This document shows, piece after piece, positions 2 to 25,376 of a stretch of DNA of 25,376 nucleotides (positions are counted from its first letter, which is position 1; each line of letters begins with the position of its first letter). The notes under the pieces are model-generated. The model did no database searches. It was not told where the DNA came from and saw nothing but the letters and a program-made list of their open reading frames with translations. The stretch is from a virus. A program made the translations under genes and the position numbers. The stretch spans positions 1 through 25,376 of IMG/VR virus record IMGVR_UViG_3300042310_000039; one strand, written 5' to 3'.

Positions 2-3000
2 GATTGGACACGAGTATATCAAACCTTCCGTAATGCGGATTTTCAAAGCTACGACTACGAAACACTTCGTAAGTCGATGATTGATTATTTACGCTTATAT
101 TACCCGGAGGACTTTAATGACTTTATCGAATCAAGTGAGTTCATTGCGCTTATCGATTTAATTGCCTTCTTAGGTCAAAGTCTTGCTTTCCGAAGCGACT
201 TAAACGCACGTGAAAACTTTATTGACACAGCACAACGTCGTGACAGTATTCTTAAATTAGCCAAACTAATTTCATACAATCCTAAACGTAATATTCCTGC
301 TAGCGGATTTTTAAAAGTTGATAGTGTAAGTACTACTGAAAATATATATGATAGTAACGGCATTAATTTAGCTGGCTTAGTGATCTCCTGGGCAGATTCG
401 GCAAACGATAATTGGTACGAGCAGTTCACAGCAGTGATCAACGCAGGACTTTTATCATCTCAATCTATCGGTAAACCTAGTAACTCACAATTAATTAATG
501 GCATAACCAACGACGAATATCAAATAAATTTAGTACCGAATATTATTGCAACATATAGTTTCACAAGTAAAATTGAAGGTACCACGACTAATTTTGAAAT
601 GATTAGTCCGACAAGTGCTGGTAAAACTTTTATATATGAAAGTGCTCCTCGTCAAAATCAACCATTTAATCTACTTTATCGTAATGATAATTTAGGCAAT
701 ACTAGTACAAATACTGGATTCTTTACCTATTTCAAACAAGGTGAATTAAAGTCACTTGATTTTACATTCCAAGAAAGTACACCAAATCGTGTGTACAGTA
801 TTAACGTAGATAATATTAATAATACTGATATATGGTTATACAGTTTAGATGCGCAGGGCTTACCAAATGCTTTGTGGACTCAGGTCCCGGCAGTGGGTAA
901 TACTAATGTTATCTACAATAAAAGTTCTAGCAAATCCATCTTTCAAGTTAACACTCGAGCCAGTGACCAAATTGATTTAGTATTCGGTGACGGCGCATTT
1001 GCTAACATACCGCAGGGTAATTATAGATTGTATTATCGTGTAAGTAACGGTACTGATTATAAAATTACCCCAGATGAAATGCAAGGTATAGTCGTACCGA
1101 TTAACTATATTAGTCGAACCGGCCGTATCGAAACACTTACTATTCGTTCAAGTTTGCGCTACACAGTGGCTAATGCTAGTTCACGCGAGTCACTTGAAGA
1201 AATTAGACAAAAAGCACCACAACAATACTACACACAAGATCGTATGGTAACAGGCGAAGATTACAACATCTTACCTTACACATTGTTTAGTAACATACTT
1301 AAAGTTAAAGCAGTTAATCGTACCAGTTCTGGTATTAGTCGTTACTTAGATGTTATTGATACAACTGGAAAATATTCAAGTACCAACATCTTTGCAGAAG
1401 ATGGCGTACTATATCGCGATCCATTTGTTAGTTCAACATCTTTTGATTATAATACAAAGAACGATATTTACAAAGCAATTTACAATAAAGTAAAACCAGT
1501 CGTTTCTAATCCAGAAACACTACATTACTTCTATGGAGAATACCCACCTATTACATTAAGTAACACTTACTGGCATGATTCAACGACAATAGCAAATGGT
1601 GGTACAGGATATCTAGTAGACGCTACTAATATAATACTATCAGTTGGCGATACAGTTTCAAATAATAACAGATATATTACACAAGGGTCGGTCATTAAAT
1701 TTAGCGCAGGTGTAGGAAATTATTTTGATACACAAAACAATATCCAGCCCGGCGTTCCAGTTCGCCCGGGAGAAAAATATTATATTTACGCGGCTGTTCA
1801 ACAAGTTGTTGGTGACGGCACAAATGGCGGCGTTGGGAATTTATCTACTGGACTCGGACCAATTACGTTAAGTGAAAGAGTACCAGATGGTGCTGTAGCA
1901 ATTGTAGTGTATGCGGTATTCGACACTGAATTTTCAACTACCCTAACAGATACTATAGTAAGTTATGTACAAGCATACGAAGATTTTGGTCTACGGTATG
2001 ATAGCGGTACTACCTCATGGAAATTAATATTACCTGGTGATTTAGCTATTGGTGAATTTAGTCTCGCCAATACCGGAGACACTAGCAGTACAGGATTAGA
2101 TACCAGTTGGTTAATACGCTTTCGAGCAATCGGACAAACTTACACTGTTTATTATAGAGGTTTGAATTATGTATTTGAAAGTGTAAATGAAACTAACTTC
2201 TATTTTGATAATGCAGTTAAGGTCTTTGACCCGTCAACTGGAGTTACAATACATGATCATATCAAAATATTAAAAGTAAACTCGAATTCAGATGATTCAA
2301 ATCCACTAGCATTAGATTATACATGGTACATTTATAAAAATATTGTTGAAGTTGATGGTTATGAAAATCCTAATAAAATTTTAATTACATTTGCTGATTT
2401 AGATAATGATGGTATTTTTGACAATCCGGATTTGTTTGACATAATTGTTAACCCTAATGTTGATGTTAACAACAAATATGTATATTTCCAATCAATTACT
2501 GGATATAATAATTTTGCTACACAAACTTTAGTCAGCAATGCTTTAGTAGAATCATCATATAGTACATTAATTGCTGCCGAGGCTGCCGCAACATTATATC
2601 AGAATGGGCAATTATTCTATATTGTGCCTGAAAATAAATTTTATCAATTATCTATCAATGGTGCCGCCTACACATTGCTTGAAGTTTCGGGGTATACTGC
2701 TAAAAAAGGTAGACAGGATATATATTTTCAATATAGACACAATAGTCCAAATTATCGACGAATTGACCCGAGCCCAAGTAATATCATTGATTTATATCTG
2801 TTAACAAAACAATATTCGGATGATTATACTGCGTGGATACAAGATACTACTAATACTGTAGTTGAACCAACAGCTCCGAGTTCTAATGCGCTTTCTACAG
2901 AGTTTGGTATATTAGAGAAATATAAAAATTTAACAGATACAATTATTTACAATCCTGCTATATTTAAACCAATATTTGGCGCTTTGGCACCAGATTCGCT

Positions 3001-3343
3001 ACAGGCAACATTTAAGGTTGTAAAAAATTCTAGTATCATTGTTAGTGATAATGATATTAAAACTAAAGTAATTGAAGCAATTAATAATTATTTTGATGTA
3101 GCAAATTGGGACTTTGGTGAAACATTTTACTTTAGTGAACTGAGCGCATATTTACATAGTGTACTTGCTCCGAATATTGCAAGTATTACTATTGTTCCGT
3201 CTAGCGCAACTAGTGTATTTGGTAGCTTGTTACAAATTAATGCAAACTATAACGAAATTATTGTAAGTGCTGCTACAGTAGATAATGTACAGATTATTAG
3301 TGCTATTACCGCGGCGCAAATCAACCAAACTGTATTGGCTTAA
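2..3343 (+). CDS. 6: Baseplate wedge protein gp6 (T4-like), 5' partial
   Basis: Homologue of T4 gp6, the wedge protein that dimerises with gp6 of neighbouring wedges to close the inner ring of the contractile-tail baseplate. The frame is open to the window edge. The ATG at 77 is internal, because the 25 codons before it (including DYETLRKS) read straight into the family sequence, so the true start lies upstream. With the Met at 77 as residue 1, the N-terminal signature YYPEDFNDFIESSEF is at about 8-22, followed by NARENFIDTAQRRDSIL. The C-terminal dimerisation-type region has NYFDVANWDFGETFYFSEL at about 1004-1022. At least 1,113 residues are present, against 660 in T4. The extra length seems to lie centrally (roughly 480-950), where the sequence is beta-rich and Gly/Thr/Asp-rich and unlike T4 gp6. 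The gap to the giant gene is 30 bases, without a terminator. The family call rests on motif recognition and is strong; the limits of the central insertion are approximate. Confidence 0.93.
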   Translation, partial: DWTRVYQTFRNADFQSYDYETLRKSMIDYLRLYYPEDFNDFIESSEFIALIDLIAFLGQSLAFRSDLNARENFIDTAQRRDSILKLAKLISYNPKRNIPASGFLKVDSVSTTENIYDSNGINLAGLVISWADSANDNWYEQFTAVINAGLLSSQSIGKPSNSQLINGITNDEYQINLVPNIIATYSFTSKIEGTTTNFEMISPTSAGKTFIYESAPRQNQPFNLLYRNDNLGNTSTNTGFFTYFKQGELKSLDFTFQESTPNRVYSINVDNINNTDIWLYSLDAQGLPNALWTQVPAVGNTNVIYNKSSSKSIFQVNTRASDQIDLVFGDGAFANIPQGNYRLYYRVSNGTDYKITPDEMQGIVVPINYISRTGRIETLTIRSSLRYTVANASSRESLEEIRQKAPQQYYTQDRMVTGEDYNILPYTLFSNILKVKAVNRTSSGISRYLDVIDTTGKYSSTNIFAEDGVLYRDPFVSSTSFDYNTKNDIYKAIYNKVKPVVSNPETLHYFYGEYPPITLSNTYWHDSTTIANGGTGYLVDATNIILSVGDTVSNNNRYITQGSVIKFSAGVGNYFDTQNNIQPGVPVRPGEKYYIYAAVQQVVGDGTNGGVGNLSTGLGPITLSERVPDGAVAIVVYAVFDTEFSTTLTDTIVSYVQAYEDFGLRYDSGTTSWKLILPGDLAIGEFSLANTGDTSSTGLDTSWLIRFRAIGQTYTVYYRGLNYVFESVNETNFYFDNAVKVFDPSTGVTIHDHIKILKVNSNSDDSNPLALDYTWYIYKNIVEVDGYENPNKILITFADLDNDGIFDNPDLFDIIVNPNVDVNNKYVYFQSITGYNNFATQTLVSNALVESSYSTLIAAEAAATLYQNGQLFYIVPENKFYQLSINGAAYTLLEVSGYTAKKGRQDIYFQYRHNSPNYRRIDPSPSNIIDLYLLTKQYSDDYTAWIQDTTNTVVEPTAPSSNALSTEFGILEKYKNLTDTIIYNPAIFKPIFGALAPDSLQATFKVVKNSSIIVSDNDIKTKVIEAINNYFDVANWDFGETFYFSELSAYLHSVLAPNIASITIVPSSATSVFGSLLQINANYNEIIVSAATVDNVQIISAITAAQINQTVLA

Positions 3344-12300: not shown

Positions 12301-15300
12301 GATATATAATCGCGGAACAAATAGCGCAGTTAGTTTAAATGATAATATATTCTGGAACGGTAATCAAGTTGGACAAGTATGGTGGAACTTAAGTCAACTT
12401 AGTTACATTGACTACGAACAAGATACAGTAACATATCGTAGCATTAATTGGGGGCGACTATTCCCAGGTTCAACAGTTGAGGTATTAGAGTGGGTAGAAA
12501 GTCCGTACTTACCAAGTACGTATGTTGCTCGAGGCGGAGAAGGTATTCCGAAATATGCCGACGATAGTGCTTATGCGGAATTAGTATATGTTGATCCAGT
12601 TACTAATATTATTAGTATTAAATATTATTTCTGGGTTAAAGATAAAACAACAGTTGATCCTAATAATAAAACTAGACAGCTACCTCTTGTGGCTATTCGA
12701 GATATAATCGAAAATCCTAAAAATCAAGGTATCCCCTATGCTGCAATTGTTAGTAATAATGTTATTAATCTATATAATATAGCCGATTATCTATCAGCAC
12801 AAAATACTATTTTACATGTCGACTATAACACAGTTAAGAACACTAATATTATTCACAGTGAATACGAGCTAGTACAAAAAGGTAACGCAGATAGTATAAT
12901 ATCTCCAAAAATTGTTAATAAATTAATTGATAGTTTAGCTGGGATTGATATATTAGGGGCAGAAGTACCCGATCCTGCTCTTAGTACTGCTAGTAAATTT
13001 GGATTAGGAGTACGCCCACGGCAGACTATGTTTGTTGATAAAACAACAGCTTATGCCAGTTTAGTAGATTATGTTAATAGTATCTTAATAACTAAACCGA
13101 TTGTTAGTACCTGTAATTTAAATACACTTAATACTCAGGAAGCACAACCCAATGTTAATCTAGGCGAATGTGATTTAAAAATTAATACAGATATTGAATT
13201 GGCATATCTCGATACTGATGTATTATCTGTAGGTTATACAGTGTTAGTAAATCAAGATACTACCCAAAATAATCTATGGACTGTTTATACATTATCTCCA
13301 ACTAAAACTTGGTCACTAACTCGAATCCAGCAGTATAAAACTTCTTTATATTGGAATTATGTTGATTGGTACGCAGAAGGAGTAAGTCCTACTGATATAC
13401 AACTTGATTATGTAGTTGATACACTTCCTGATGCTTTAAAATTACCAGTTGCTGTTGGTGATGATATACTTGTCAAGGTTGGTAGTGGCAATAGTGGTTG
13501 GACTCTTATTTCAGTAGCGGCTGATCTTGCTTATACTATCGTGGGCAGACAGAATGGAACAATACAATTAACAACATCAAACAATGATACTGTTATTCCT
13601 ACTACTCCGACTATAGAAATTCGTCATATAATCAACGCTCTTAAAGATGATATTTTTATCGGTGAATTAGATGCTGAATTTAATAATCTAATTTTTGTAA
13701 TGATTAATTATGCGTTAACTGAACAAAAATATGTAGATTGGTTATTTAAAACTAGTTTTATTAGTGTATCACATAAATTGCGTTCGCTATTACAATATCC
13801 AAACTATATTAAAGATAATCAAACGTATTATGAAAATTACATCACAGAAGTTAAACCATATTCAACTAAAATACGTGAATATTCTATTAACTATGATAGT
13901 AATGATGAATTTGCGGGTAGTGTAACCGACTTTGATTTACCACCGTACTATGATACAGAAACAAAAGTATTCCGTAGCCCGAGTGGTGAAAATGTAATTA
14001 AAGATGAGGCATTATGGCAAACTGATACCTACAACCAATGGTATACTAATAGAAACCACCGTGTTGAAAATATTATAGTAGAAAATGCCGGCAGTGGATA
14101 TACATCCGAACCAATAGTCACTATTGTGGGTGGTGGTCTTGCTGCTACCGGAGCAACTGCCCGCGCGGTTATTGACTTTGATTTAGGTACTGTGATTAGA
14201 ATTGAAATTCTTACTCGCGGTACTGGCTATTATCAAACTCCGACTGTGGTTATTAATGGCACGAATACAACTCCGGCAACAGCCTACGCACAATTAGGGA
14301 ACATACCATTTGAAGCACCGCAGCCTAACGCAGGTCATGCCTTAGTAAGAACATTTGATACAACATTAAAATTTGATAGAATCAGTTACACTAGTTCTGT
14401 AACAGAATGGGCTGCTAATACTGCTTATACTGTTGGAGATATCATAACTCGTCTTGATTTAAATGGAGTACGGACTGCGTATATAGCTACTACTAATACA
14501 AGTCCTAGCTCAACTTTTATATCAGACAATTACAGTGTGTACAATGCGTCTGATTTTACTAATGCTACCGATCGTGTTATGGGGTACTATGAACCTAATT
14601 CGGCGATGACTACCATCGAAACAAGCTCAACTATAATAACAACCGCTAATACTACTACTAGTAGTACTACAATTTATCTCGTAAATAATATTAATGATCT
14701 ACATATCGGGATGTATATTAGTGGCAATGGAGTTACATCGAGTTTAATTACTAACGTTGTATTAAATGTATTAGAAGATGTTAGTTATATTACTGTCGAC
14801 ATTGCCCAAACTATTGCAGCAGGAACAGAAATTACTGCAACTTACAAAAACTTAGGGGAGTTACTGAAAGGCATTAATTACCCCGGAGTAAAAGTACAAG
14901 GTCTTAATTTTAATCAAGCACCTGGGTTTGATGGGCCAACACCGTTTGATCAAGGTATATTTGATAATATTCAATATGATGCTGATGGTTTACCTATGTT
15001 AGATGATGCAACTGTGGATACAATTATTCGTAGTAGCTACACCGACTTGGCATTAGGCACACGAGCAGAAGATATCGATGTTGTGGGTGGTGCGTATGTT
15101 GATACATATTCAAGTCATGCTCCAGAAGAAATGGTTCCTGGTATTGTATTTGATACACTAGACATGCAGGTTTATACTAAAATTAACGGCAATGTTGATG
15201 TAATTGCCTACAGAATGTTTAGTAACATGATGCGTGAAGAAAGTTATTTACGTATTGCTGATGCCCATGCAACAACATTAGTGGCTCCGTTGGGTTTAAC

Positions 15301-16344: not shown

Positions 16345-18006
16345 ATGTCGACGATTAAGATTAGCGAATTAGGAAATTTAACTACAGTACTAGGGAATAC
16401 AATTGTACCTGTAGTTGGTAATGTTGCTGGAACACTAACAACATTGCGAAGTAATGTTGCGCAATTACAAACATTCATCCTCGGAACTGTAGTTACAGAT
16501 TTAGCAAATTTAACTGCGTCAACCACAGCCAATGCTGCGGTACAAAGCGGTGCCATTACTGCCGTCGATGCTGCATGGCAAGCCAATGCCGCAACGCAAT
16601 TAAGTCAAATCACAGCCGCTAATGCCGCAATAGTAACAGCTAATACAGCATTGAAAGGGTATGTTGATGCGGCAAATACCATACAATCAAATGAAATCAC
16701 AACAATTAGCAATTCAGTAACAAGTGCCAACACTAATATGAAGGGTTATGTAGACGCGGCAAATACCATACAATCAAATGAAATCACAACAATTAGCAAT
16801 TCAGTTACAGGCGCAAATGCTGCTATAGTTACAGCTAATACGGCAATGAAAGGCTATGTAGACGCGGCTAATACTGTACAATCAAATGAAATCACAGCAA
16901 TTAGTAATTCGGTTACAGGCGCCAATGCCGCAATTGTAACTGCAAATACAGCAATGAAAGGCTATGTTGATGCGGCTAATACTATACAATCAAATGAAAT
17001 CACAGCAATTAGTAATTCGGTTACAGGCGCCAATGCTGCTATAGTTACAGCTAATACAGCAATGAAAGGCTATGTTGATGCTAATAATGCTACGCAACTA
17101 ACATCAATCAATAACATTACCAACGGAACTGCTACATTTGGAAATATTATTCCTAGTGCCAATGTAACTTATAATTTAGGTAGTCCAACCGCACAGTGGA
17201 AAGATTTATATCTAAGTGGTAGTACAATTTATATTGGTGGAGGCAATATCAGTGTTGCGAATAACACCTTTACTACTTCGTTGCCATTTACTGCCACTGG
17301 TACAATCTCAGCAGTTGATTTAGCTATTACTAATTCTATAATATGTGGCACAATTTTTGCTGACCAATCAGAGTTAACTGGGTACACAACATTATATCAA
17401 ACAGGGTTTGACAGCAATATGGCTAATTTAGCCTATGGTACTGTGGCATTATCTGTTACAACAAATGGCGATCCGAGAGCAGATCAAGGTGCTTTACTAT
17501 TCGAGGGTAACAATCCAGACGGAATTGGTATAGTTCCGTCGAATGATACTGCGTACACATTGGGATCTGCATCTCATCGCTGGGGCACTATATATTCACA
17601 GACTGTTGAGACTGAATCTGTTATCTTCTCAAATGGCGGCATATTTAGTACAATCGATGGTAGTGGACTACCTTATATTATCTTAGCAAGTGACGCGACT
17701 AACGCAACAGCAATAGCTACGCCAAGTTCAAATGTTTCTATTTTAAATTATATATCGATCAATGAAACGTATGCTAATGTAGTTGTCCATAATGCCAATA
17801 CCGCAGTGACACATACATGGCAATTTACCCAAGATGGTGATATTAAATTGCCAGCAGCCGGCGATATATTAGATTCAGCAGGCAATAGTGTAATAACATC
17901 ATTTACAATGGGCAATGCTGCACACTGGACTACACCGGTTACTACTATTGCAGCTGCATTGGATCAGATAGCCGAACGTTTATGGGACATTGAAAACCCG
18001 GTTTAA
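16345..18006 (+). CDS. Tail fibre protein with tandem coiled-coil-like repeats
   Basis: A 553-residue protein. The N-terminus MSTIKISELGNLTTV is a type common in aquatic phage fibre proteins and is probably the attachment end. Residues about 60-255 are Ala/Asn/Thr/Ile-rich and contain four tandem repeats (starting at 105, 134, 170 and 206) beginning GYVDAANTIQSNEI, plus a decayed fifth at 242; their spacing of hydrophobics suggests a trimeric coiled-coil shaft. Distal to this are two copies of the phage fibre motif N/T-LG...(R/Q)W..(L/I)Y: NLGSPTAQWKDLYLSG at 277 and TLGSASHRWGTIY at 405. The C-terminus (ALDQIAERLWDIE) is a short predicted helix. The gene is coupled to the giant gene, with a two-base gap and a good Shine-Dalgarno site. 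It is most likely a baseplate-attached fibre or fibre connector; receptor specificity cannot be read. Confidence 0.75.
   Translation: MSTIKISELGNLTTVLGNTIVPVVGNVAGTLTTLRSNVAQLQTFILGTVVTDLANLTASTTANAAVQSGAITAVDAAWQANAATQLSQITAANAAIVTANTALKGYVDAANTIQSNEITTISNSVTSANTNMKGYVDAANTIQSNEITTISNSVTGANAAIVTANTAMKGYVDAANTVQSNEITAISNSVTGANAAIVTANTAMKGYVDAANTIQSNEITAISNSVTGANAAIVTANTAMKGYVDANNATQLTSINNITNGTATFGNIIPSANVTYNLGSPTAQWKDLYLSGSTIYIGGGNISVANNTFTTSLPFTATGTISAVDLAITNSIICGTIFADQSELTGYTTLYQTGFDSNMANLAYGTVALSVTTNGDPRADQGALLFEGNNPDGIGIVPSNDTAYTLGSASHRWGTIYSQTVETESVIFSNGGIFSTIDGSGLPYIILASDATNATAIATPSSNVSILNYISINETYANVVVHNANTAVTHTWQFTQDGDIKLPAAGDILDSAGNSVITSFTMGNAAHWTTPVTTIAAALDQIAERLWDIENPV
16657..17067 (+). 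repeat. Tandem in-gene repeat array, unit 108 bases (36 aa) with one 87-base copy
   Basis: Four in-frame copies occur: 16657-16743 (29 codons), 16744-16851, 16852-16959 and 16960-17067 (36 codons each). A degenerate continuation follows from 17068. Copy 1 lacks seven residues relative to the others. Long stretches are identical at the DNA level: 50 bases between copies 1 and 2, and 51 bases between copies 3 and 4 (16878-16928 and 16986-17036). Copy 4 matches copy 3 in its first part and copy 2 in its last part. This is coding sequence, not a spacer-repeat array. Confidence 0.9.
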
Positions 18007-18010
18007 TACT

Positions 18011-18712
18011 ATGATTGATAATGAAATAAATAAGTATATGGATAAAAAAATGCAAGATTCAACAATGAAAACACAACCAACTGCTGCTCCAGCTAAACAA
18101 CCTGATGAGCGTGGTGGTATACATCTTCAAGGTCATATTAAGATATTTGATCCTGAGACTAACGAAGTGTTTGTAAACAAACGCAATGCTATTCATTATG
18201 AAAATATGAGCGAAGCAATTGCGCAAAGTTTAAGTAATAAAGGCACACAATTTATTACTGAGATGCACTTTGGTAACGGTGGTACTACAGTTGACCCTAC
18301 CGGCGTTATTACATATTTGCCAACTAATACTAACGTACAAAATGCTGACTTATATAGTCCACAATATTACAAAATTGTTGATAATACAAATTCTGCTAAT
18401 ATAGATCCACTGAGAAACAAAATGGTAATCACACATACCCCTGGACAAATTTACAGTGATATTATCGTAAGTTGTCTGTTAGACTATGGTGAACCAAGCG
18501 GGCAAGCGGTGTTTGACAACAGTCAAGATTTAAATGGACAATTTGTGTTTGATGAGTTGGGATTAAAGGGATTTTCATCAACGGGCGCAGGACTTGGCAA
18601 ACTATTAACACACGTGATTTTTAGCCCAGTACAAAAATCCCTAAACAGATTGATTCAAATTGATTACACAGTGCGTATACAAACACTAACTAATCTAAGT
18701 ACTACAGTATAA
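18011..18712 (+). CDS. Conserved T4-like phage virion protein of unknown function
   Basis: A 233-residue protein. The ATG at 18011, four bases after the upstream stop, is preferred. The frame also has a TTG at 17990, but its only purine run (GGGA) is two bases away and it would overlap the fibre gene. After a charged, Pro/Ala-rich N-terminus, residues about 28-70 read HLQGHIKIFDPETNEVFVN and NAIHYENMSEAIAQSLS, then HFGNGGTTVDPTGVITYLP. I recognise this pattern from structural genes of aquatic T4-like phages but cannot attach a T4 gene number. The C-terminal half is beta-rich (FDELGLKGF, LTHVIFSPV). No signal peptide or transmembrane segment is seen. The location between a fibre gene and three more fibre genes suggests a tail or baseplate component, perhaps a fibre adaptor; that role is inference. 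Confidence 0.7.
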   Translation: MIDNEINKYMDKKMQDSTMKTQPTAAPAKQPDERGGIHLQGHIKIFDPETNEVFVNKRNAIHYENMSEAIAQSLSNKGTQFITEMHFGNGGTTVDPTGVITYLPTNTNVQNADLYSPQYYKIVDNTNSANIDPLRNKMVITHTPGQIYSDIIVSCLLDYGEPSGQAVFDNSQDLNGQFVFDELGLKGFSSTGAGLGKLLTHVIFSPVQKSLNRLIQIDYTVRIQTLTNLSTTV

Positions 18713-18714
18713 CT

Positions 18715-18718
18715 AGGA
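18715..18718 (+). promoter_or_regulatory. Shine-Dalgarno site for fibre paralogue A
   Basis: AGGA lies seven bases before the ATG at 18726, in the 13-base gap after the preceding stop codon. It supports this start. Confidence 0.6.
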
Positions 18719-18725
18719 TAATAAC

Positions 18726-20087
18726 ATGGCGTATATAATAAGAAAAACAAACGGAACAACCCTTGGTACTATTTTAGATGGTACTATAGACACTGCGCAG
18801 ACTAGTTTAACATTGGTTGGTCGTAACTATGCTAACTACGGTCAGATAATGACTGATAATTTAGTAGCACTAATTGAAAATTTTGCCTACGACATTGAAC
18901 CCAGTAATCCGTTAGACGGACAATTATGGTGGGACACATCAGTTAAATTATTAAAAGTATACACTGGTACATATTTCAAAGTCATTAGTAGTGCAACCGC
19001 ACAAAATAGTAATACAGTCGGAGCACCGTCGACAGTAGTTCCCGGTGATATCTGGTGGGACACTTATGCTGAACAACTATATGTATACGATGGTACTACT
19101 CCGTATGTTAGTTCCGGTTGGAAACTAGTTGGTCCTACGTGGAGCAAAATATACGGTAAGAGCGGTGCGCTATGGGAACAAATTATAGACACAACAAACG
19201 TAACCCACGATGTTGTATCATTGTATATCGACGGAACACGAACAGCAATTATCAGTCAAGACGCTGTGTTTACTCCGTTGACCGCAATTACTGGCTTTAC
19301 CTCTATTAGAACTGGACACAATTTACGTAGTGGACACACACTTTGGGGCACTGCTAATAATGCTAGTTACTTAGGTGGTGTTATTGCTAGCAATTATTTA
19401 CGTACAGATATTAACAATAGTAGTACAGGTAATTTACATATTGTGAATAATACCGGAATTACGATCGGAGCTAATCTAGAATTAACATTAGCTGTTACTG
19501 GTGCTAACGCAACTATAACAAATAATTTTACCAACGGTAATATTAGTTTTGCTACTAATAGTACATCATACTTGCATATTAACGGTACTACTGGTGTAAT
19601 CGAAGTTGCCGCAGACCCGTCTACAGCATTGGGGATTGCTACAAAAAATTATGTAGATGATAGTTTTCTTACTTCGCCGGCCTTAGGCGGAGTTCCAACA
19701 GCAAATACTGCCCCTGCCGGAACAGTAACAACACAACTGGCTACAACAGAATATGTTGTTAATAATTCTGGATTTTTAAAGAATAAAATATATCAAGGAA
19801 ACAGTTATTTAGAAATAGTTGATGTAGGATCAGGAGCTGCTAACTTAGCAATTGACGGTATTAGTGTTTTAACTGCTAGCGCAGCTGGAGTGAATTTACT
19901 TGCCGGAGCAACAGCAACAACGCAAACTCAAACTTATACAAGTACTGGCAATGCGGCAGTAGCAACTACACAATATGTAAGAACAGCCGGACAATGGTGG
20001 GGTGGCAGTGCTAAATTTGTTAGCCTATCAACCCCTGATGCTGGACAAGGTAACGATGGCGATTTCTGGTTCCAGTATACTCCATAA
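18726..20087 (+). CDS. Tail fibre protein, paralogue A
   Basis: A 453-residue protein, first of three tandem paralogues. The shared N-terminal part (about 1-210) starts MAYIIRKTNGTTLGTILDGT and contains SLTLVGRNYANYGQ, LIENFAYD, and two tryptophan-rich units, GQLWWDTSVKLLKVYTG and GDIWWDTYAEQLYVYDG. It ends with SIRTGHNLRSGHTLWGTANNA. This region is probably the virion-attachment and shaft part. Distally it carries a fibre-type segment, ALGGVPTANTAPAGTVTTQL from residue 319 followed by ATTEYV, a repeat type common in phage fibres. The C-terminus is DGDFWFQYTP. It is clearly more diverged from paralogues B and C than they are from each other, and its tip is unrelated to theirs. It is most likely a structural fibre with a receptor-facing C-terminus; the receptor is unknown. 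Confidence 0.78.
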   Translation: MAYIIRKTNGTTLGTILDGTIDTAQTSLTLVGRNYANYGQIMTDNLVALIENFAYDIEPSNPLDGQLWWDTSVKLLKVYTGTYFKVISSATAQNSNTVGAPSTVVPGDIWWDTYAEQLYVYDGTTPYVSSGWKLVGPTWSKIYGKSGALWEQIIDTTNVTHDVVSLYIDGTRTAIISQDAVFTPLTAITGFTSIRTGHNLRSGHTLWGTANNASYLGGVIASNYLRTDINNSSTGNLHIVNNTGITIGANLELTLAVTGANATITNNFTNGNISFATNSTSYLHINGTTGVIEVAADPSTALGIATKNYVDDSFLTSPALGGVPTANTAPAGTVTTQLATTEYVVNNSGFLKNKIYQGNSYLEIVDVGSGAANLAIDGISVLTASAAGVNLLAGATATTQTQTYTSTGNAAVATTQYVRTAGQWWGGSAKFVSLSTPDAGQGNDGDFWFQYTP

Positions 20088-20102
20088 AAATTAATAACTA
20101 AT

Positions 20103-20116
20103 ATAATAGGTAAACA
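20103..20116 (+). repeat. Duplicated leader with ribosome binding site, copy 1 (before paralogue B)
   Basis: ATAATAGGTAAACA occurs two bases before the ATG at 20119, and the identical 14 bases occur at 21495-21508, two bases before the ATG of paralogue C. AGG, eight bases before each ATG, is the likely ribosome binding site. The shared leader indicates that the gene duplication included the upstream gap. Confidence 0.75.
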
Positions 20117-20118
20117 TA

Positions 20119-21480
20119 ATGTCGTACATTGTAACTTCAACATCCGGAGTAAGAATTGCAACTATAGCAGACGGAACAATTAATGCTTCTTCTACTAGCT
20201 TAACTCTAATTGGTAAAAATTATGCGGGGTATGGACTTTTTCTAAACGACAACTATGTCAGATTATTAGAAAACTTTGCCAATGCCTCAGCTCCACTGCA
20301 CTCACGCAGCGGCCAATTATGGTACGATAGTACAGCTAACATATTAAAATTATATAATGGTACCACTTGGAAGCCTATTAGCAGCACCGCAGCATCTAGC
20401 AGTTCTCCTGTTAGTCCGGTAACTGGGGATTTATGGTGGGATACAACTAATTCACAACTTAAAGTACGAGGCGGTAGTGCCTGGATAACTATTGGACCTT
20501 CTTATACAGCTACCGCAGGCACATCAGGAACTATAGTTGAAACTATTTTAGACAATAATTCGATTAGTCATGTTATCGTTAAATTTTATATTTCAAACAG
20601 TGTAATTGCTATATTGAGTAAAGACAGCGAATTTACTCCGCAAGTATCGATTACCGGATTTGACACAATTAAACCTGGATTAAATCTAATCAGTTCAAAC
20701 ACACTAACTGGAGCACAATTTACAGGTATCGCTAGTAATGCTCTACAAGTTAACGGAATTACAGGCAGTTTATATTTACGTAGCGATCAAAATACGAGTA
20801 CTACCTATAGAATTTCAGCAGGCAGTGTAGCAGTTGGTAATTTAGTTATTGCTGATTCAAGTGGTACTACTAGTTTAACTAATAGTAAACTTAATGGTGA
20901 TATGAATCTATGGGTTAACATGGGCGGAGTTAATACTAAAGCAATTGGTATTAACGGAACAACATCAACAGCTACATTTGCTGGTAATTTAGTACCAAAT
21001 GCCAATAATACTCTTAATATTGGTGATGCTGGTACTAGGTTTGCTAATGTATATGCTACAAATTTCATTGGAACAGCAATCACTTCACTATATGCTGACT
21101 TAGCTGAAAGATTTGAAACAGATGCTCCATTACTTCCAGGAACTGTCGTTGAACTCGGCGGCCTTAAAGAAATCACCGCAGCGGCTCAAGAATTGAGTGA
21201 AGCAGTATTCGGTGTAATAAGCACTAATGCTGGATTTTTAATGAATGGTGCCGCTGGATCAAATGCCACTCACCCACCGGTTGCGGTTAATGGGCGTGTA
21301 CCGGTTCGTGTAATCGGTAAAGTGAATAAAGGTGATAGATTAGTAAGTGCCGGACAGGGATTAGCACGAGCAGCTCTAAGAAGCGAGATAACCGCATTTA
21401 ATGTTATCGGCCGTGCTTTAGAAAATAAAGAAACAACAGGCATAGGCACAGTCACGTCGGTAGTTAGAATAAATAGTTAA
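20119..21480 (+). CDS. Tail fibre protein, paralogue B, with ADLAERFE-type C-terminal domain
   Basis: A 453-residue protein. The shared fibre N-terminus (MSYIVTSTSGVRIATIADGT, GKNYAGYGLFL, GQLWYDSTANILKLYNG, GDLWWDTTNSQLKVRGG) is followed by FYISNSVIAILSKDSEF and GFDTIKPGLNLISS. The region to about 280 is close to paralogue C at DNA level. VPNANNTLNIGDAGTRFANV at about 292 is the fibre motif that often precedes a tip domain. Residues about 325-453 form a distinct C-terminal domain starting YADLAERFETDAPLLPG, then VVELGG, FGVISTNAGFLMN, VAVNGRVPVRVIG, KGDRLVSAGQG and ending IGTVTSVVRI. I know this domain from tail proteins of aquatic T4-like phages. Its opening resembles the start of some fibre chaperone/autocleavage domains, but I see no basis to assert cleavage. 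It may be a trimerising tip or receptor-binding domain. Confidence 0.8.
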   Translation: MSYIVTSTSGVRIATIADGTINASSTSLTLIGKNYAGYGLFLNDNYVRLLENFANASAPLHSRSGQLWYDSTANILKLYNGTTWKPISSTAASSSSPVSPVTGDLWWDTTNSQLKVRGGSAWITIGPSYTATAGTSGTIVETILDNNSISHVIVKFYISNSVIAILSKDSEFTPQVSITGFDTIKPGLNLISSNTLTGAQFTGIASNALQVNGITGSLYLRSDQNTSTTYRISAGSVAVGNLVIADSSGTTSLTNSKLNGDMNLWVNMGGVNTKAIGINGTTSTATFAGNLVPNANNTLNIGDAGTRFANVYATNFIGTAITSLYADLAERFETDAPLLPGTVVELGGLKEITAAAQELSEAVFGVISTNAGFLMNGAAGSNATHPPVAVNGRVPVRVIGKVNKGDRLVSAGQGLARAALRSEITAFNVIGRALENKETTGIGTVTSVVRINS

Positions 21481-21494
21481 TAATAGCATACATA

Positions 21495-21508
21495 ATAATA
21501 GGTAAACA
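21495..21508 (+). repeat. Duplicated leader with ribosome binding site, copy 2 (before paralogue C)
   Basis: Identical to the 14 bases at 20103-20116 and at the same distance (two bases) from the start codon, here the ATG at 21511. AGG at 21500-21502 is the likely ribosome binding site. Confidence 0.75.
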
Positions 21509-21510
21509 CA

Positions 21511-22749
21511 ATGTCGTATATAGTATCAAAAACAAACGGAGCGACAATTGCAACTATAGTAGACGGAACAATTAATGCTTCTGCTACTAGTTTAATTCTA
21601 GTTGGTAAAAATTATGCCGGATATGGTCGTTTTCTTAATGAGAATTACGTTAAATTATTAGAAAATTTTTCCAGCGTAACAGCCCCAGAACCAGCACTCA
21701 GCGGCCAATTATGGTACGATAGTAATAACAGCGTATTAAAAATAAACAAAGATGGTACATCTACTGGATGGGCTGATATTAATAGTTCTACAGCGTCTAG
21801 CAGTTCTCCTCTTAGTCCAGTAACTGGAGATTTATGGTGGGATACAACTAATTCACAACTTAAAGTGTGGAGTGGTAGTGCTTGGGTAACTGTTGGCCCT
21901 ACATATACATCTTCGGGGGGAACATCAGGGGCCATTGTTGAAACTATTTTAGATGATGCTGATAATAGTCGAGTAGTTGTTAAATTTTATATTTCAAATA
22001 GCGTAATTGCTATTTTAAGTAAAGACAGTGAATTTACTCCTCAAGTATCGATTACCGGATTTGACACAATTAAACCTGGATTAAATCTAATTAGTTCAAG
22101 CACGCTAACTGGAGCACAATTTACGGGTAATGCTAGTAATGCGACAACACTCAACGGAGTTTCATCATATTTACGCAGTGATATCAATACAACAGCAACA
22201 GGAGTATTAACAGCAGCCGGTAATTTAGTTGTAGGTACTGATTTAACGATTGCTTCTGGCATCGGGTCAGTTAGTTTAACTAATAGTACTAACAATAGCG
22301 ATATGAATCTATGGGTTAAAAAAGCCGGAGTTAATACTAAAGCAATTGGTATTAACGGTGCCACAGCTGCAGTTACACTACCGGGTAACTTTATAACACA
22401 AGGAACAGCAAGCATTACGGGTAATATATCTATAACAGGATATTCACTACATCAAGGTATCACTATTGCTTCGAATAAAATATTACCAAATGCTAATAAT
22501 ACAATTGATATTGGCGCCACAGCAACTAAATTTGCTAACATACACGCTAGTACCCTAGTAGGTAATGTTACTGGCAATGTTACCGCAACTAATATAACAG
22601 CTAGCGCATATATAAAAACTGCTGTATATGCAACAACAACAGCTCGTGATCTTGCAATTCCTTCTCCGACGCCCGGTATGCAGGTATTTGTAACCTCGGG
22701 AGCAAAATTTTATGGTTATACCGGTGTGGCATGGGTCGCATTAAATTAA
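21511..22749 (+). CDS. Tail fibre protein, paralogue C
   Basis: A 412-residue protein. The N-terminal and middle parts closely follow paralogue B: MSYIVSKTNGATIATIVDGT, GKNYAGYGRFLNENYVKLLE, GDLWWDTTNSQLKVWSG, FYISNSVIAILSKDSEF and GVNTKAIGING. At DNA level, 20578-20739 of B and 21979-22140 of C align without gaps, with about 12 differences in 162 bases by hand count. Identity falls away after about residue 285. A fibre motif ILPNANNTIDIGATATKFAN follows at 324, with SKF-type VGNVTGNVTATNITAS. The C-terminus is a short module from residue 378, ARDLAIPSPTPGMQVFVTSG, ending YGYTGVAWVALN, a small tip type seen in many phage fibre proteins. It lacks the ADLAERFE-type domain of B. It is likely a fibre with a different receptor-facing tip on the same shaft design. 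Confidence 0.8.
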   Translation: MSYIVSKTNGATIATIVDGTINASATSLILVGKNYAGYGRFLNENYVKLLENFSSVTAPEPALSGQLWYDSNNSVLKINKDGTSTGWADINSSTASSSSPLSPVTGDLWWDTTNSQLKVWSGSAWVTVGPTYTSSGGTSGAIVETILDDADNSRVVVKFYISNSVIAILSKDSEFTPQVSITGFDTIKPGLNLISSSTLTGAQFTGNASNATTLNGVSSYLRSDINTTATGVLTAAGNLVVGTDLTIASGIGSVSLTNSTNNSDMNLWVKKAGVNTKAIGINGATAAVTLPGNFITQGTASITGNISITGYSLHQGITIASNKILPNANNTIDIGATATKFANIHASTLVGNVTGNVTATNITASAYIKTAVYATTTARDLAIPSPTPGMQVFVTSGAKFYGYTGVAWVALN

Positions 22750-22775
22750 AAATAATTTTTATAATAGATACTACA

Positions 22776-22784
22776 CTAAATATA
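22776..22784 (+). promoter_or_regulatory. Possible T4-type late promoter (CTAAATATA)
   Basis: The 56-base gap before the next gene is very AT-rich and holds CTAAATATA, which resembles the TATAAATA late promoter -10 element of T4-like phages. It would start a transcript near 22790, just before the Shine-Dalgarno site AGGGA at 22794-22798. The match is short and the local composition makes a chance hit quite possible. Confidence 0.3.
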
Positions 22785-22793
22785 TTAGTAATT

Positions 22794-22798
22794 AGGGA
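22794..22798 (+). promoter_or_regulatory. Shine-Dalgarno site for the 313-aa virion protein gene
   Basis: AGGGA lies seven bases before the ATG at 22806. It is among the clearest ribosome binding sites in the window and supports this start. Confidence 0.7.
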
Positions 22799-22805
22799 AT
22801 AAAGA

Positions 22806-23747
22806 ATGGCATACGCATCGGCAGGATTAATTTCAGCAACAGACTATAACAACCTAGCATGGGGTGGTACTCAAGGTACTTACACAGCGGTTACTAAAAA
22901 CATTGCTTATGTTATGGGCGTTGGTACGGGTGCTAATGGATATGGTCAAACTATTACTGCGATTAATACAGTGGCAGGTGCCGACATAGTAACAGCCACA
23001 CAATGGAGTGGCATGTTAACTTTACTTAATGGCGCATTAGGTCATCAAAGTGGTGCTGGCGCACAATTAAGTGGTAACTATACTGCTGGACAGACTATTA
23101 CATATTTTGCCAACGTAGCCACAGCGGTAACAACAATTAATACAAATGCGGCATTATATGCGGCACAAGGCGCTACAACTACTGGTGCAAACTTTGATGC
23201 AACTGTAACAGGTTCAACTGGTTTAAGTAGTTATACTGTAGACCGTGTAGTAACATTTGCTAGTGCTAACCAAGCACGCTACTTCTTTAACGCCGGCGGA
23301 CAATTAAATTTAAGATTAAGTACAGTGAACGCTGCTGATAATGGATCAGAAAGTAGTTTTGCTAGACTAGTAACTGGTTTGGGCGGCGTTGGATTTAGAA
23401 ATACTACAAACACTGGTCGCACTGGGTCTGGTATTACCTTAAATACCAACAATACAGCACTTGGTTATAGAACTAACGTACTTAACACACCGGCTACTAT
23501 AGTGCAAGTAACTGATACCACAGCAAGTTACACAGCAAGCACTGGGTATTTACAAGTGTATACAAGCAGTAGTGACACTACTAACGGCTCAAACGGATTA
23601 AACGTAGTTTTCCGCACTGTATTTACTGTTGCTGACAAGCCATTTAATGATGCATTAAGTCTTACCTACAGAATGGCAGTTGATATTGTATATCCAGAAT
23701 CAACATACTTAACAACTAACTCATGGGGCACACCAACTATTTCATAG
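22806..23747 (+). CDS. Small virion protein of aquatic T4-like phages
   Basis: A 313-residue protein. The N-terminal domain (about 1-85) has the pattern LISATDYNNLAWGG, YVMGVGTGANGYGQ, then VAGADIVTATQWSGMLTLLN and a closing GHQSGAG. This paired arrangement (DYN...VMG.G..GYGQ, then ATQW..ML) recurs in structural proteins of aquatic phages, as far as I recall. The rest is Thr/Ser/Asn/Gly-rich and beta-prone, with FASANQARYFFNAGGQLNLR near 150 and LSLTYRMAVDIVYPESTYL near the end. No membrane segment or signal peptide is seen. It ends the run of structural genes; the stop codon is immediately followed by a strong promoter. A fibre-tip or decoration role is possible but not shown. Confidence 0.7.
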   Translation: MAYASAGLISATDYNNLAWGGTQGTYTAVTKNIAYVMGVGTGANGYGQTITAINTVAGADIVTATQWSGMLTLLNGALGHQSGAGAQLSGNYTAGQTITYFANVATAVTTINTNAALYAAQGATTTGANFDATVTGSTGLSSYTVDRVVTFASANQARYFFNAGGQLNLRLSTVNAADNGSESSFARLVTGLGGVGFRNTTNTGRTGSGITLNTNNTALGYRTNVLNTPATIVQVTDTTASYTASTGYLQVYTSSSDTTNGSNGLNVVFRTVFTVADKPFNDALSLTYRMAVDIVYPESTYLTTNSWGTPTIS

Positions 23748-23776
23748 TTGACAAACTAATATAAATGTAGTATACT
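23748..23776 (+). promoter_or_regulatory. Strong sigma70-type promoter
   Basis: TTGACA (23748-23753, perfect -35) and TATACT (23771-23776, five of six -10 bases) are separated by exactly 17 bases. The predicted start is about 23783. The -35 begins on the base after the stop codon of the preceding gene. Within the spacer, TATAAATG (23760-23767) matches seven of eight bases of the T4 late promoter TATAAATA, so the site could serve two polymerase forms. It would drive the 105-residue gene and the two glycosyltransferase-like genes. Confidence 0.75.
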
Positions 23777-23807
23777 ATAGGTAAGTTATTTTGACTTACC
23801 TATTTTT
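23777..23807 (+). terminator. Intrinsic terminator hairpin ending the structural operon
   Basis: A perfect 10-base-pair stem, ATAGGTAAGT (23777-23786) with ACTTACCTAT (23794-23803), has loop TATTTTG and is followed by TTTT. It starts on the base after the -10 box, so the predicted start site of the overlapping promoter falls inside the left arm. RNAs begun there would lack most of that arm and should not form the full hairpin. Confidence 0.8.
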
Positions 23808-23823
23808 ATGGCTAATTACTATT

Positions 23824-24141
23824 ATGACAACAGAAATTACTCAATTAGTTGCTCAAATTAAACAAGCAACGGATTATCAAACCAACAAACGCATACTTAA
23901 AGAAAAAATACAAACGGATTTACATGTTCCGTATAACAATGGACTCTTTAAAGTAACACCGGAACTTATAGCATTCCTATCAACGTGGACTGCTGATACT
24001 GTGTATCTTGAAGATACCTACGAAAATCCTATAGAAATACAACGACTAGCATTTTTAGAATTGTGTCAGCAACACTATCAACAAGTAATGAACGCATGGC
24101 ATATTCAATATGACGAAATCCGACGTGCCCGCAAAGTCTAA
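23824..24141 (+). CDS. Conserved small protein of unknown function (105 aa)
   Basis: The ATG at 23824 is chosen. The frame extends back to a TTG at 23791, but that lies in the terminator loop, has no ribosome binding site, and would be only about 8 bases from the predicted RNA 5' end. No strong Shine-Dalgarno precedes 23824 either. The protein is Gln/Glu/Lys/Thr-rich and probably largely helical: EITQLVAQIKQATDYQTNK, ILKEKIQTDLH, the centre YNNGLFKVTPELIAFLSTW, then VYLEDTYENPIEIQR and a C-terminal helix CQQHYQQVMNAWHIQYDEIR. It has no membrane segment and no metal or nucleotide motif that I can see. I believe similar small proteins occur in other aquatic T4-like phages, but I cannot name a function. 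Its last 32 bases overlap the next gene. Confidence 0.75.
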   Translation: MTTEITQLVAQIKQATDYQTNKRILKEKIQTDLHVPYNNGLFKVTPELIAFLSTWTADTVYLEDTYENPIEIQRLAFLELCQQHYQQVMNAWHIQYDEIRRARKV

Positions 24142-24886
24142 AGGTGTTGTATTATTTGCTGTTAACACTGCCACAGTTGATTATGTTAGAATCGCTGAGC
24201 AGGCCGCACGACTAATTAAACATACTCTAAACTTACCTACTACCATTATTACAGATCCGGGCGTACCTAGTTTAGCTAACTATCGCACTGGCTATGCTGG
24301 TGGCACAGAATGGAAGAATGGTGGTAGATATCGTGCGTACGAACTTAGTCCTTATGATGAAACTATCTTACTTGACAGTGACTATCTACAGTTAGACTCA
24401 AGTTTATTAACTATACTTGATACAACAGTTGATTATAAGTTAATGCACAATAATCAAAGCCCTGAACAGTCAATGTCGGGCAACATGGGTCAGTTAAGTT
24501 TAGATTATGTATGGGCAACTGCTATAACATTTAAGCGTACAGATAAAACACAAATGTTATTTGATCTAGTTGGTCGTATTGAACGTAACTATGCTTACTA
24601 TCAAAAACTATATCACTTAAGAGAACGCAATTTCCGCAATGATTATGCGTTCGCCATTGCCAACAACATTATTAATGGGTACACTACTAATACCACACAA
24701 AGTATACCTTTTACTATGTTAACCTTGGATAAACTGGTTAAAGACATTGAAATAACGGGTGAAAAGATGATTATACGCGAAGAAAATTCTGTACATGTCA
24801 TTACCAGGCAAAACATACATGTAATGGATAAAGATTATTTGCTTAGTGAAAAGTTCGATCAGTTGGTAGATACAGTATGCGAATAA
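24110..24886 (+). CDS. GT-A glycosyltransferase-like protein
   Basis: A 258-residue protein. The N-terminal half looks like a GT-A nucleotide-sugar fold: a first strand KGVVLFAVNTATVDYVRIAE, then NLPTTIITDPG, then RYRAYELSPYDETILLDSDY, where DSD at residues 89-91 is a candidate metal-binding DxD motif directly after a hydrophobic strand. Further blocks are MGQLSLDYVWATAITFKRT, NFRNDYAFAIANNIINGY and HVITRQNIHVMDKDYL near the C-terminus. No membrane segment or signal peptide is seen, so it would act in the cytoplasm. The ATG at 24110 overlaps the preceding gene by 32 bases and has no clear Shine-Dalgarno, suggesting coupled translation. The substrate is unknown; DNA, virion protein or host glycan modification are all possible. 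The fold-level call is moderate. Confidence 0.7.
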   Translation: MTKSDVPAKSKGVVLFAVNTATVDYVRIAEQAARLIKHTLNLPTTIITDPGVPSLANYRTGYAGGTEWKNGGRYRAYELSPYDETILLDSDYLQLDSSLLTILDTTVDYKLMHNNQSPEQSMSGNMGQLSLDYVWATAITFKRTDKTQMLFDLVGRIERNYAYYQKLYHLRERNFRNDYAFAIANNIINGYTTNTTQSIPFTMLTLDKLVKDIEITGEKMIIREENSVHVITRQNIHVMDKDYLLSEKFDQLVDTVCE

Positions 24887-25376
24887 CACCACATCAGGCA
24901 CAGCAGGGCTTTATGACCATTGCACAGAATACAGCAGAGGTTGATTACTTACGGCTTGCTTACGTACAAGCAATGAGTATTAAACTAACCATGCCCGGCA
25001 GTTTATACGCAGTGGCAGTTGATAAACATACACTAGAGCAAGTTACAGAACAACATCGCCGAGTGTTTGATTATGTCGTTACCATTGACACTGACCTAGC
25101 CCAAAACGAAACTTGGAAGTTAAGCAATGAATGGCAGGCATTTTATCTCACACCATTCAAAGAAACAATTAAACTCGAAAGTGACATTGTATTCACTAGA
25201 AGTATTGCGCATTGGTGGACTGCTTTTAGATTAAAGAATGTTGTACTAAGCACGGGCTGTAGAGATTATCAGCAAGAGTTAAGCACATCACGAGAATACA
25301 GAAAGTTATTTGACGATAATGAATTGCCTGACACTTACAATGGATTAATGTATTTTAGATACACCCGTGAAGCAAC
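24877..25376 (+). CDS. Second glycosyltransferase-like protein, 3' partial
   Basis: Starts at ATG 24877, overlapping the previous stop by 10 bases, and stays open to the window edge (166 codons seen). An alternative ATG is at 24913. The N-terminus repeats the design of its neighbour: MTIAQNTAEVDYLRLAYVQA parallels VNTATVDYVRIAEQA, followed by a strand SLYAVAVDKHT like TIITD. Then come FDYVVTIDTDL, EWQAFYLTPFKETIKLESDI (ESD at 101-103 in the DxD position), FTRSIAHWWTAFRLKN and ELPDTYNGLMYFRY. The last resembles segments of GT-A-like proteins in cyanophages, as I recall. The pair is probably an old tandem duplication with diverged function. The missing 3' end prevents judging domain completeness. 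Confidence 0.68.
   Translation, partial: MRITPHQAQQGFMTIAQNTAEVDYLRLAYVQAMSIKLTMPGSLYAVAVDKHTLEQVTEQHRRVFDYVVTIDTDLAQNETWKLSNEWQAFYLTPFKETIKLESDIVFTRSIAHWWTAFRLKNVVLSTGCRDYQQELSTSREYRKLFDDNELPDTYNGLMYFRYTREA

Follow-up and report, generated by a model that had tools for sequence, protein, structure and literature searches.

Tandem fibre-like genes with differing, conserved C-terminal modules in a putative giant-myovirus baseplate operon

Gene content of the locus

The DNA analysed here (the window) is a metagenome-derived virus fragment of 25,376 bases. Three tandem open reading frames, named A, B and C, were found where the initial annotation had placed them, and they occupy a slot that is bounded by two marker genes, U and D. 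The features of the window are as follows.

2..3343, + strand: baseplate wedge subunit (T4 gp6-like; phrog_10646, E 3e-287), 5' end truncated by the contig edge
3374..16342, + strand: giant virion structural protein of 4322 aa (phrog_10938, E 5e-163 and 9e-96 in two pieces)
16345-18006: 553-aa gene upstream of U, with repeats at 16738-17075
17990..18712, + strand: U, upstream slot marker, 240 aa (phrog_11259 family, E 9e-70; PA5oct gp357 has the same place)
18726..20087, + strand: gene A, 453-aa fibre-like subunit, an old paralogue
approx. 19836-20084, + strand: A end module (WWGGSAKFVS...GDFWFQY)
20119..21480, + strand: gene B, 453-aa fibre-like subunit
20119..20739, + strand: B head, aa 1-207 (head profile common to relatives)
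approx. 20281-20388, + strand: GQLWYD module inside the B head
approx. 20392-20511, + strand: GDLWWD module inside the B head
20740..21087, + strand: B variable shaft, aa 208-323 (the segment of lowest identity, mean 38% between relatives)
21088..21480, + strand: B C-terminal domain, aa 324-453, predicted phi29 gp12-type / Peptidase_G2
21481..21510, + strand: B-C leader ATAATAGGTAAACA, of the type that precedes window B and the second gene in relatives
21511..22749, + strand: gene C, 412-aa fibre-like subunit
approx. 22567-22746, + strand: C end module (ARDLAIPSPTPGMQVFVTSGAKFYGYTGVAWVALN)
22750..22805, + strand: C-D spacer, a C-type 3' tail followed by GGAATAAAGA, the probable cassette junction
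22806..23747, + strand: D, downstream slot marker, 313 aa, kept after the slot in relatives

A, B and C are encoded downstream of the wedge gene and the giant structural gene and, judged by sequence, the locus is a baseplate operon in a giant-myovirus fragment. The N-terminal region (the head) of each protein matches two families, phrog_14394 (E 7e-8, 7e-9 and 2e-11 for A, B and C, respectively) and phrog_15511 (E 2e-5, 1e-10 and 6e-8). A scan of genome contigs for a host returned 11 matches, which lie on MAG contigs of unrelated taxa and are probably co-binned viral DNA; therefore, no host can be named.

Several neighbouring genes have features of their own. At 4322 aa, the product of 3374-16342 is very large for a phage structural protein, and both of the N-terminal pieces that were searched match phrog_10938 in part only. 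The 553-aa gene (16345-18006) contains an in-frame coding unit of 108 bp in 3.1 copies (89% matches), and its repeat motif is counted five times in the window and in relative L012, three times in L011 and twice in L013; these differences suggest length variation of a shaft-like region. Near the end of the window, the adjacent reading frames 24110-24886 and 24877-25374 have similar N-termini (NTAxVDYxRxA) and may be paralogous, glycosyltransferase-like genes; the second gives a weak match to Mannosyl_trans3 (E 0.015), under the cut-off.

Three paralogues with one head and unrelated ends

The N-terminal motif that had been noted in the initial annotation is present in A, B and C, its true spacing (MxYIxxxTxG) being one residue longer than first written, and each protein carries one GQLW(W/Y)D module, as had been reported, plus a second module, GD(I/L)WWD. 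Comparison of the two modules with HHalign shows them to be homologous (E 8e-19; score 78 versus 17 for the best shuffled control). B and C are 61% identical over 353 N-terminal amino acids (E 4e-132) and 77% identical at the DNA level over approximately 872 nt (893 aligned columns), leader included, while A displays approximately 40% amino acid identity to either over approximately 290–300 residues (E 1e-54 to 1e-55). Homology stops at around residue 290–350, beyond which the C-termini cannot be aligned. Three paralogues with a common N-terminal region of approximately 290 aa and unrelated end modules are thus present, as first proposed, at a level far beyond chance. The proposal that they share one shaft design did not hold: the common part comprises the head with its GQLW/GDLWWD region, and the shaft proper (approximately aa 208–350) is the least conserved segment.

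The three genes are not equidistant, as B and C constitute a close duplicate pair with a common leader and A is an old, distant paralogue. Direct repeats link B and C at 20103-20357/21495-21749 and 20376-20675/21777-22076, and within a 95%-identical segment a stretch of 50 nt, the longest B/C identity and an intragenic one, is the same at 20641-20690 (+) in B and 22042-22091 (+) in C. This stretch points to gene conversion between the two genes at a later time, or to a recent partial duplication. On a tree of head sequences, a direct sister relationship of window B and window C was neither supported nor rejected (AU p 0.54).

Among the end modules, those of A and D are homologous to each other (E 2e-11), and the D end bears a weak likeness to the second module (E 2e-5). 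The ends of A, C and D were also considered as degenerate GDLWWD copies; those of A and C scored barely above shuffled controls, and no such claim is made.

The slot in uncultured relatives and in cultured phages

Relatives were collected by similarity scans of viral contigs with C, D, A and U, each covering up to 80 loci; all counts given here refer to the matches listed and describe this sample rather than natural frequencies. Since a scan with the C end alone reached two loci among the matches listed, both through the shaft part, C-type ends were found via heads and synteny. At least 142 distinct complete U-to-D slots were obtained, of which 129 contain a B end, in last position in 127, and 67 begin with A. 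The slots consist of B alone (53), A-B (34), or A with an optional middle gene and B, the middle gene ending in a C module (A-C-B, four), a short D module (seven) or a Collar/Gp10-like module (seven). Two slots, from two lineages, carry A-C without B, and the A-B-C order is seen in the window alone (1/142). In three relatives (L114, L129 and L140), the B position is occupied by a gene with a Peptidase_S74 end (E 8e-9 to 2e-13).

Additional peculiarities were observed in individual relatives. The contig of L098 and L178 (3300021137_000001, 329 kb) is giant-phage-sized and combines the A-B arrangement with two adjacent D-like genes, a doubling also present in L102, L115, L117, L125 and L143. In L119, a head-family gene in the A position (5525-6661) has a collagen-like triple-helix shaft (PF01391, E 4e-15), and L039 (6239-9406) and L145 (1945-6342) contain very long head-family genes of 1055 and 1465 aa, respectively, with unclassified ends.

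Among cultured phages, Pseudomonas phage PA5oct (NC_071039) offers a close parallel, in that gp358 and gp359 form a tandem, head-sharing pair that follows a giant structural gene and lies between phrog_11259-like and D-like genes; gp359 has a B end, as does window B, and gp360, in the place of D, resembles D at its N-terminus. PA5oct differs from the window in having two genes rather than three and in its first gene, gp358, which ends in T4 Gp10_C (E 1e-23) and not in an A end; its homologue of B is 47% identical over 51% of B. All of gp357–gp360, as well as the giant upstream gene, are annotated with ESI-MS/MS in the record notes. The initial suggestion of mixed fibres on one virion finds partial support in this syntenic pair, both members of which bear the annotation; A, B and C may likewise occur together in one virion. 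The record name of gp358 (L085 10253-11998), long tail fibre distal subunit, may mislead given its head family and Gp10_C end.

Agrobacterium phage Atu_ph07 (gp176) and Sinorhizobium phage Phosso each encode a single B-type protein downstream of giant structural and U-like genes, as in the window, but in one copy, as a longer protein and without an A or C paralogue at the locus. Atu_ph07 gp176 lies within a cluster (CDS 170-215) that is reported to be rich in virion proteins (PMC6102473).

The B end resembles the C-terminal domain of phi29 gp12

The B end is a domain of approximately 129 aa that begins with the motif AD(L/V)AER(F/Y) and was found in 138 head-bearing reading frames among the matches listed. 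In all 138 sequences it extends 118–135 residues from this motif to the stop codon, and thus forms the very C-terminus, after the shaft. An alignment of 55 sequences contains 25 invariant positions in this domain, among them D327, A329 and E330 of B. Window B scores just under the curated cut-off for Pfam PF11962 (Peptidase_G2; E 2e-5, 24.4 bits versus 25), in a partial match covering positions 45–101 of 228, and 65 of 76 full-length relatives match the same family at E <= 0.01, the best at 9e-8.

An AlphaFold model of the B monomer (pTM 0.43) has pLDDT values mostly between 84 and 96 in the B end. The predicted domain superimposes on the phi29 gp12 pre-neck appendage structures 3SUC (VIA-align Z 15.1, rmsd 2.0 A over 115 residues, 25% identity) and 3GQH (Z 14.6), the rmsd range for the two being 2.0–2.1 A over 110–115 residues, and Foldseek returned E 1e-4 for this fold. 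The next-best structural matches, at Z 13 and below, are phage capsid decoration proteins, and the fold is therefore more widely distributed. A profile of the B end weakly reaches gp12 (3GQH) and Dpo31 in a search of PDB sequences (E 0.02–0.03); direct PDB sequence searches with the window B end, as well as a whole-length profile search against PDB sequences, returned nothing relevant. By its predicted fold, the B end is a C-terminal chaperone domain of the phi29 gp12 type. Because of this fold match, and because the C-terminal domain of gp12 is an intramolecular chaperone that is released once folding is done (PMC4690869), the B end is probably an assembly module rather than a receptor tip. 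The presence of an S74 chaperone in the same position in relatives fits this role.

Besides the fold, the B end has in common with gp12 (PF11962) a D-x-A-E motif at the junction. It differs in length (129 versus 163 residues), in having Ala instead of Ser before the junction, in the upstream protein to which it is joined and in its setting, a myovirus baseplate operon as opposed to a podovirus appendage. These features bear on whether B, by the strict phi29 gp12 mechanism, cleaves itself, leaving a mature fibre without such a tip. The window motif Y325-A326-D327-L328-A329-E330 corresponds in position to the junction where gp12 is cleaved. D327 aligns with the first residue, an aspartate, of the solved gp12 fragment, the model of mature gp12 runs to residue 691 (PMC6542822), and D327, A329 and E330 are invariant. 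However, Ser691 of phi29, the residue before the presumed scissile bond and the last one modelled in the mature appendage (PMC4690869, PMC6542822), is replaced by alanine in 138/138 motif-bearing B homologues among the matches listed, and for this reason self-cleavage may not occur. We consider self-cleavage a real possibility, though one falling somewhat short of even chances. In a more tentative and rather doubtful variant, the exchanged unit would be an assembly chaperone and not a tip, phi29-gp12-type, S74-type and short ends being interchangeable on one head family, and B would be a non-cleaving gp12 chaperone that has lost the serine and is retained on the mature fibre to form a structural cap.

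The ends of A and C received no confident structural assignment, the model of C being of low confidence (mean pLDDT 64, poor at both termini). Residues approximately 88–137 of B weakly resemble CBA120 TSP3 (583–623) and collagen XV/XVIII trimerisation domains at Z < 5; the collagen XV/XVIII likeness of the GDLWWD region falls under the reliability line of the tool and is retained as a lead only.

Ends are exchanged between heads

On a head tree of 52 sequences, C-type genes occupy separate places and are mixed with B-type genes. Constraining the C heads to a single clade costs 100 log-likelihood units (AU p 1.9e-5), and the end type changes at least three times on the tree. The heads of L006-C and L013-B are sisters with full support, and the DNA of these two genes is 74–88% identical up to approximately alignment column 350 and 32–41% identical from where the ends begin; the breakpoint is sharp, lies at the shaft-end junction, and identity beyond it is at chance level. 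L013-B and L011-B display the opposite pattern, with heads at 39–80% and ends at 79–96%. The genes flanking the slot are 83–92% identical between L006 and L013, and the event is, as read from these alignments, an end exchange (or a head conversion) in a conserved background. The idea that the cassette serves as a reservoir for recombination is thus borne out in its general form by the constraint test and the breakpoint. Domain shuffling in tail fibres, including that of intramolecular chaperone domains, is well documented (PMC10684548).

The companion idea of switchable recognition found no sign of switching: there are no inverted repeats of at least 24 nt in 18000-24000, and the scanned reading frames of the window, which covers 25 kb of the genome, include neither a recombinase nor a reverse transcriptase.

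Conservation of the ends and the role of the fibre-like proteins

Pairwise identities were calculated within each type among close relatives (32 A, 31 B and 7 C sequences, with end types assigned by sequence motifs), and the values are descriptive means over related pairs. For head, shaft and end, respectively, they are 58, 50 and 62% in the A type, 64, 38 and 68% in the B type, and 59, 42 and 70% in the C type. All three types agree in direction, the mean identity of the ends being at least that of the heads and the middle shaft varying most. The initial annotation had regarded the ends as diverging host-recognition tips, a reading that by its own terms would fail if tips were as conserved as the shafts, and this is what was found. 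Should any part of these proteins read the host surface, the conservation pattern points to the variable shaft more than to the ends. Strictly, receptor-binding ends would also be compatible with this pattern, because a conserved receptor would conserve the ends too.

Where tandem fibre genes vary at their C-termini, this is commonly taken as host-range variation, and the three ends might be receptor-binding tips that make host recognition multivalent or switchable. Branched or multiple receptor-binding proteins are laid out in this way, as tandem paralogues with a common head and differing C-termini, e.g. in the multi-fibre sets known in CBA120 (TSP1-4) and RaK2 (gp526-534), where several related receptor-binding proteins are encoded together (PMC10253068). 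Furthermore, PA5oct has two paralogues with virion MS notes and reportedly needs LPS and a second receptor, e.g. type IV pili (PMC6950013), and an exchange of ends through recombination would also suit tips. Against this stand the conservation of the ends relative to the heads in every type, the chaperone fold of the B end and the lack of inverted repeats. Moreover, the CBA120 and RaK2 sets vary in enzymatic or receptor domains, whereas the ends in the window are conserved and neither a catalytic nor a glycan-binding domain was detected in A, B or C. We therefore regard receptor-binding tips as unlikely.

Starting from the observed homology, synteny, conservation pattern, breakpoint and predicted fold match, we favour, as the probable explanation, baseplate fibres with exchangeable ends that serve mainly in assembly. 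A, B and C would be subunits of probably trimeric, fibre-like baseplate proteins of a giant T4-related myovirus, in which the N-terminal head most likely docks to the baseplate, the GQLW/GDLWWD beta modules probably aid chain register, and a variable shaft is followed by one of a small set of C-terminal modules. These modules would be mainly assembly devices: in B, a phi29-gp12-type chaperone would trimerise and register the chain, possibly being cut off afterwards, while in relatives a Peptidase_S74 chaperone may take the B position and the optional middle gene may carry Gp10_C/Collar or short beta-hairpin ends. The slot that holds these genes, flanked by two conserved structural genes, would be prone to recombination, and homologous recombination within the common head and shaft would put ends on new heads. 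What we infer beyond the observations is the trimeric state, docking by the head, the function of each end and the presence of all three proteins in one virion.

The new elements are modest, namely a defined slot in uncultured giant phages and the identification of the B end; in at least one case the exchanged, conserved module of this slot appears to serve folding rather than receptor contact. Recognisable folding domains, each conserved within its type, are among the variable C-termini of the slot, so a host-range reading would probably be wrong here. Natural exchanges in the slot could also be used to find out which segment of a baseplate fibre determines specificity. The B domain, common among uncultured aquatic giant phages and usually left as unknown in annotations, now has a predicted fold and a testable role.

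Origin of the A-B-C order

In L011–L013, the stop codon of B is followed at once by a leader of the GGAATAAA/TTAAGA type and then by the start of D. The window has, after the B stop, a leader typical of second genes, then C, a C-type 3' tail, GGAATAAAGA and D. The sequence directly after the B stop codon in L012 is identical to GGAATAAAGA, and those in L011 and L013 are nearly so. Because the C-D spacer thus joins a C tail to a B-D leader, the simplest reading is that a cassette of leader, C and tail was probably inserted between B and D, insertion being the presumed direction of the event, and that this produced the unusual order of the window. The D gene of the window is about equally close to those of L006, L011, L012 and L013 (87–89%), and therefore donor and recipient cannot be named.

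The same order could in principle have arisen by metagenome misassembly, joining a strain with A-B to a strain with A-C. Relatives of both arrangements exist, and A-B-C is unique among the 142 slots in the matches listed. However, a misjoin at the longest B/C identity, the intragenic 50 nt, would create a chimeric gene and not an extra one. Additionally, a proper leader separates B from C, and what lies between C and D is a composite of C tail and B-D leader. On these grounds, misassembly is very improbable.
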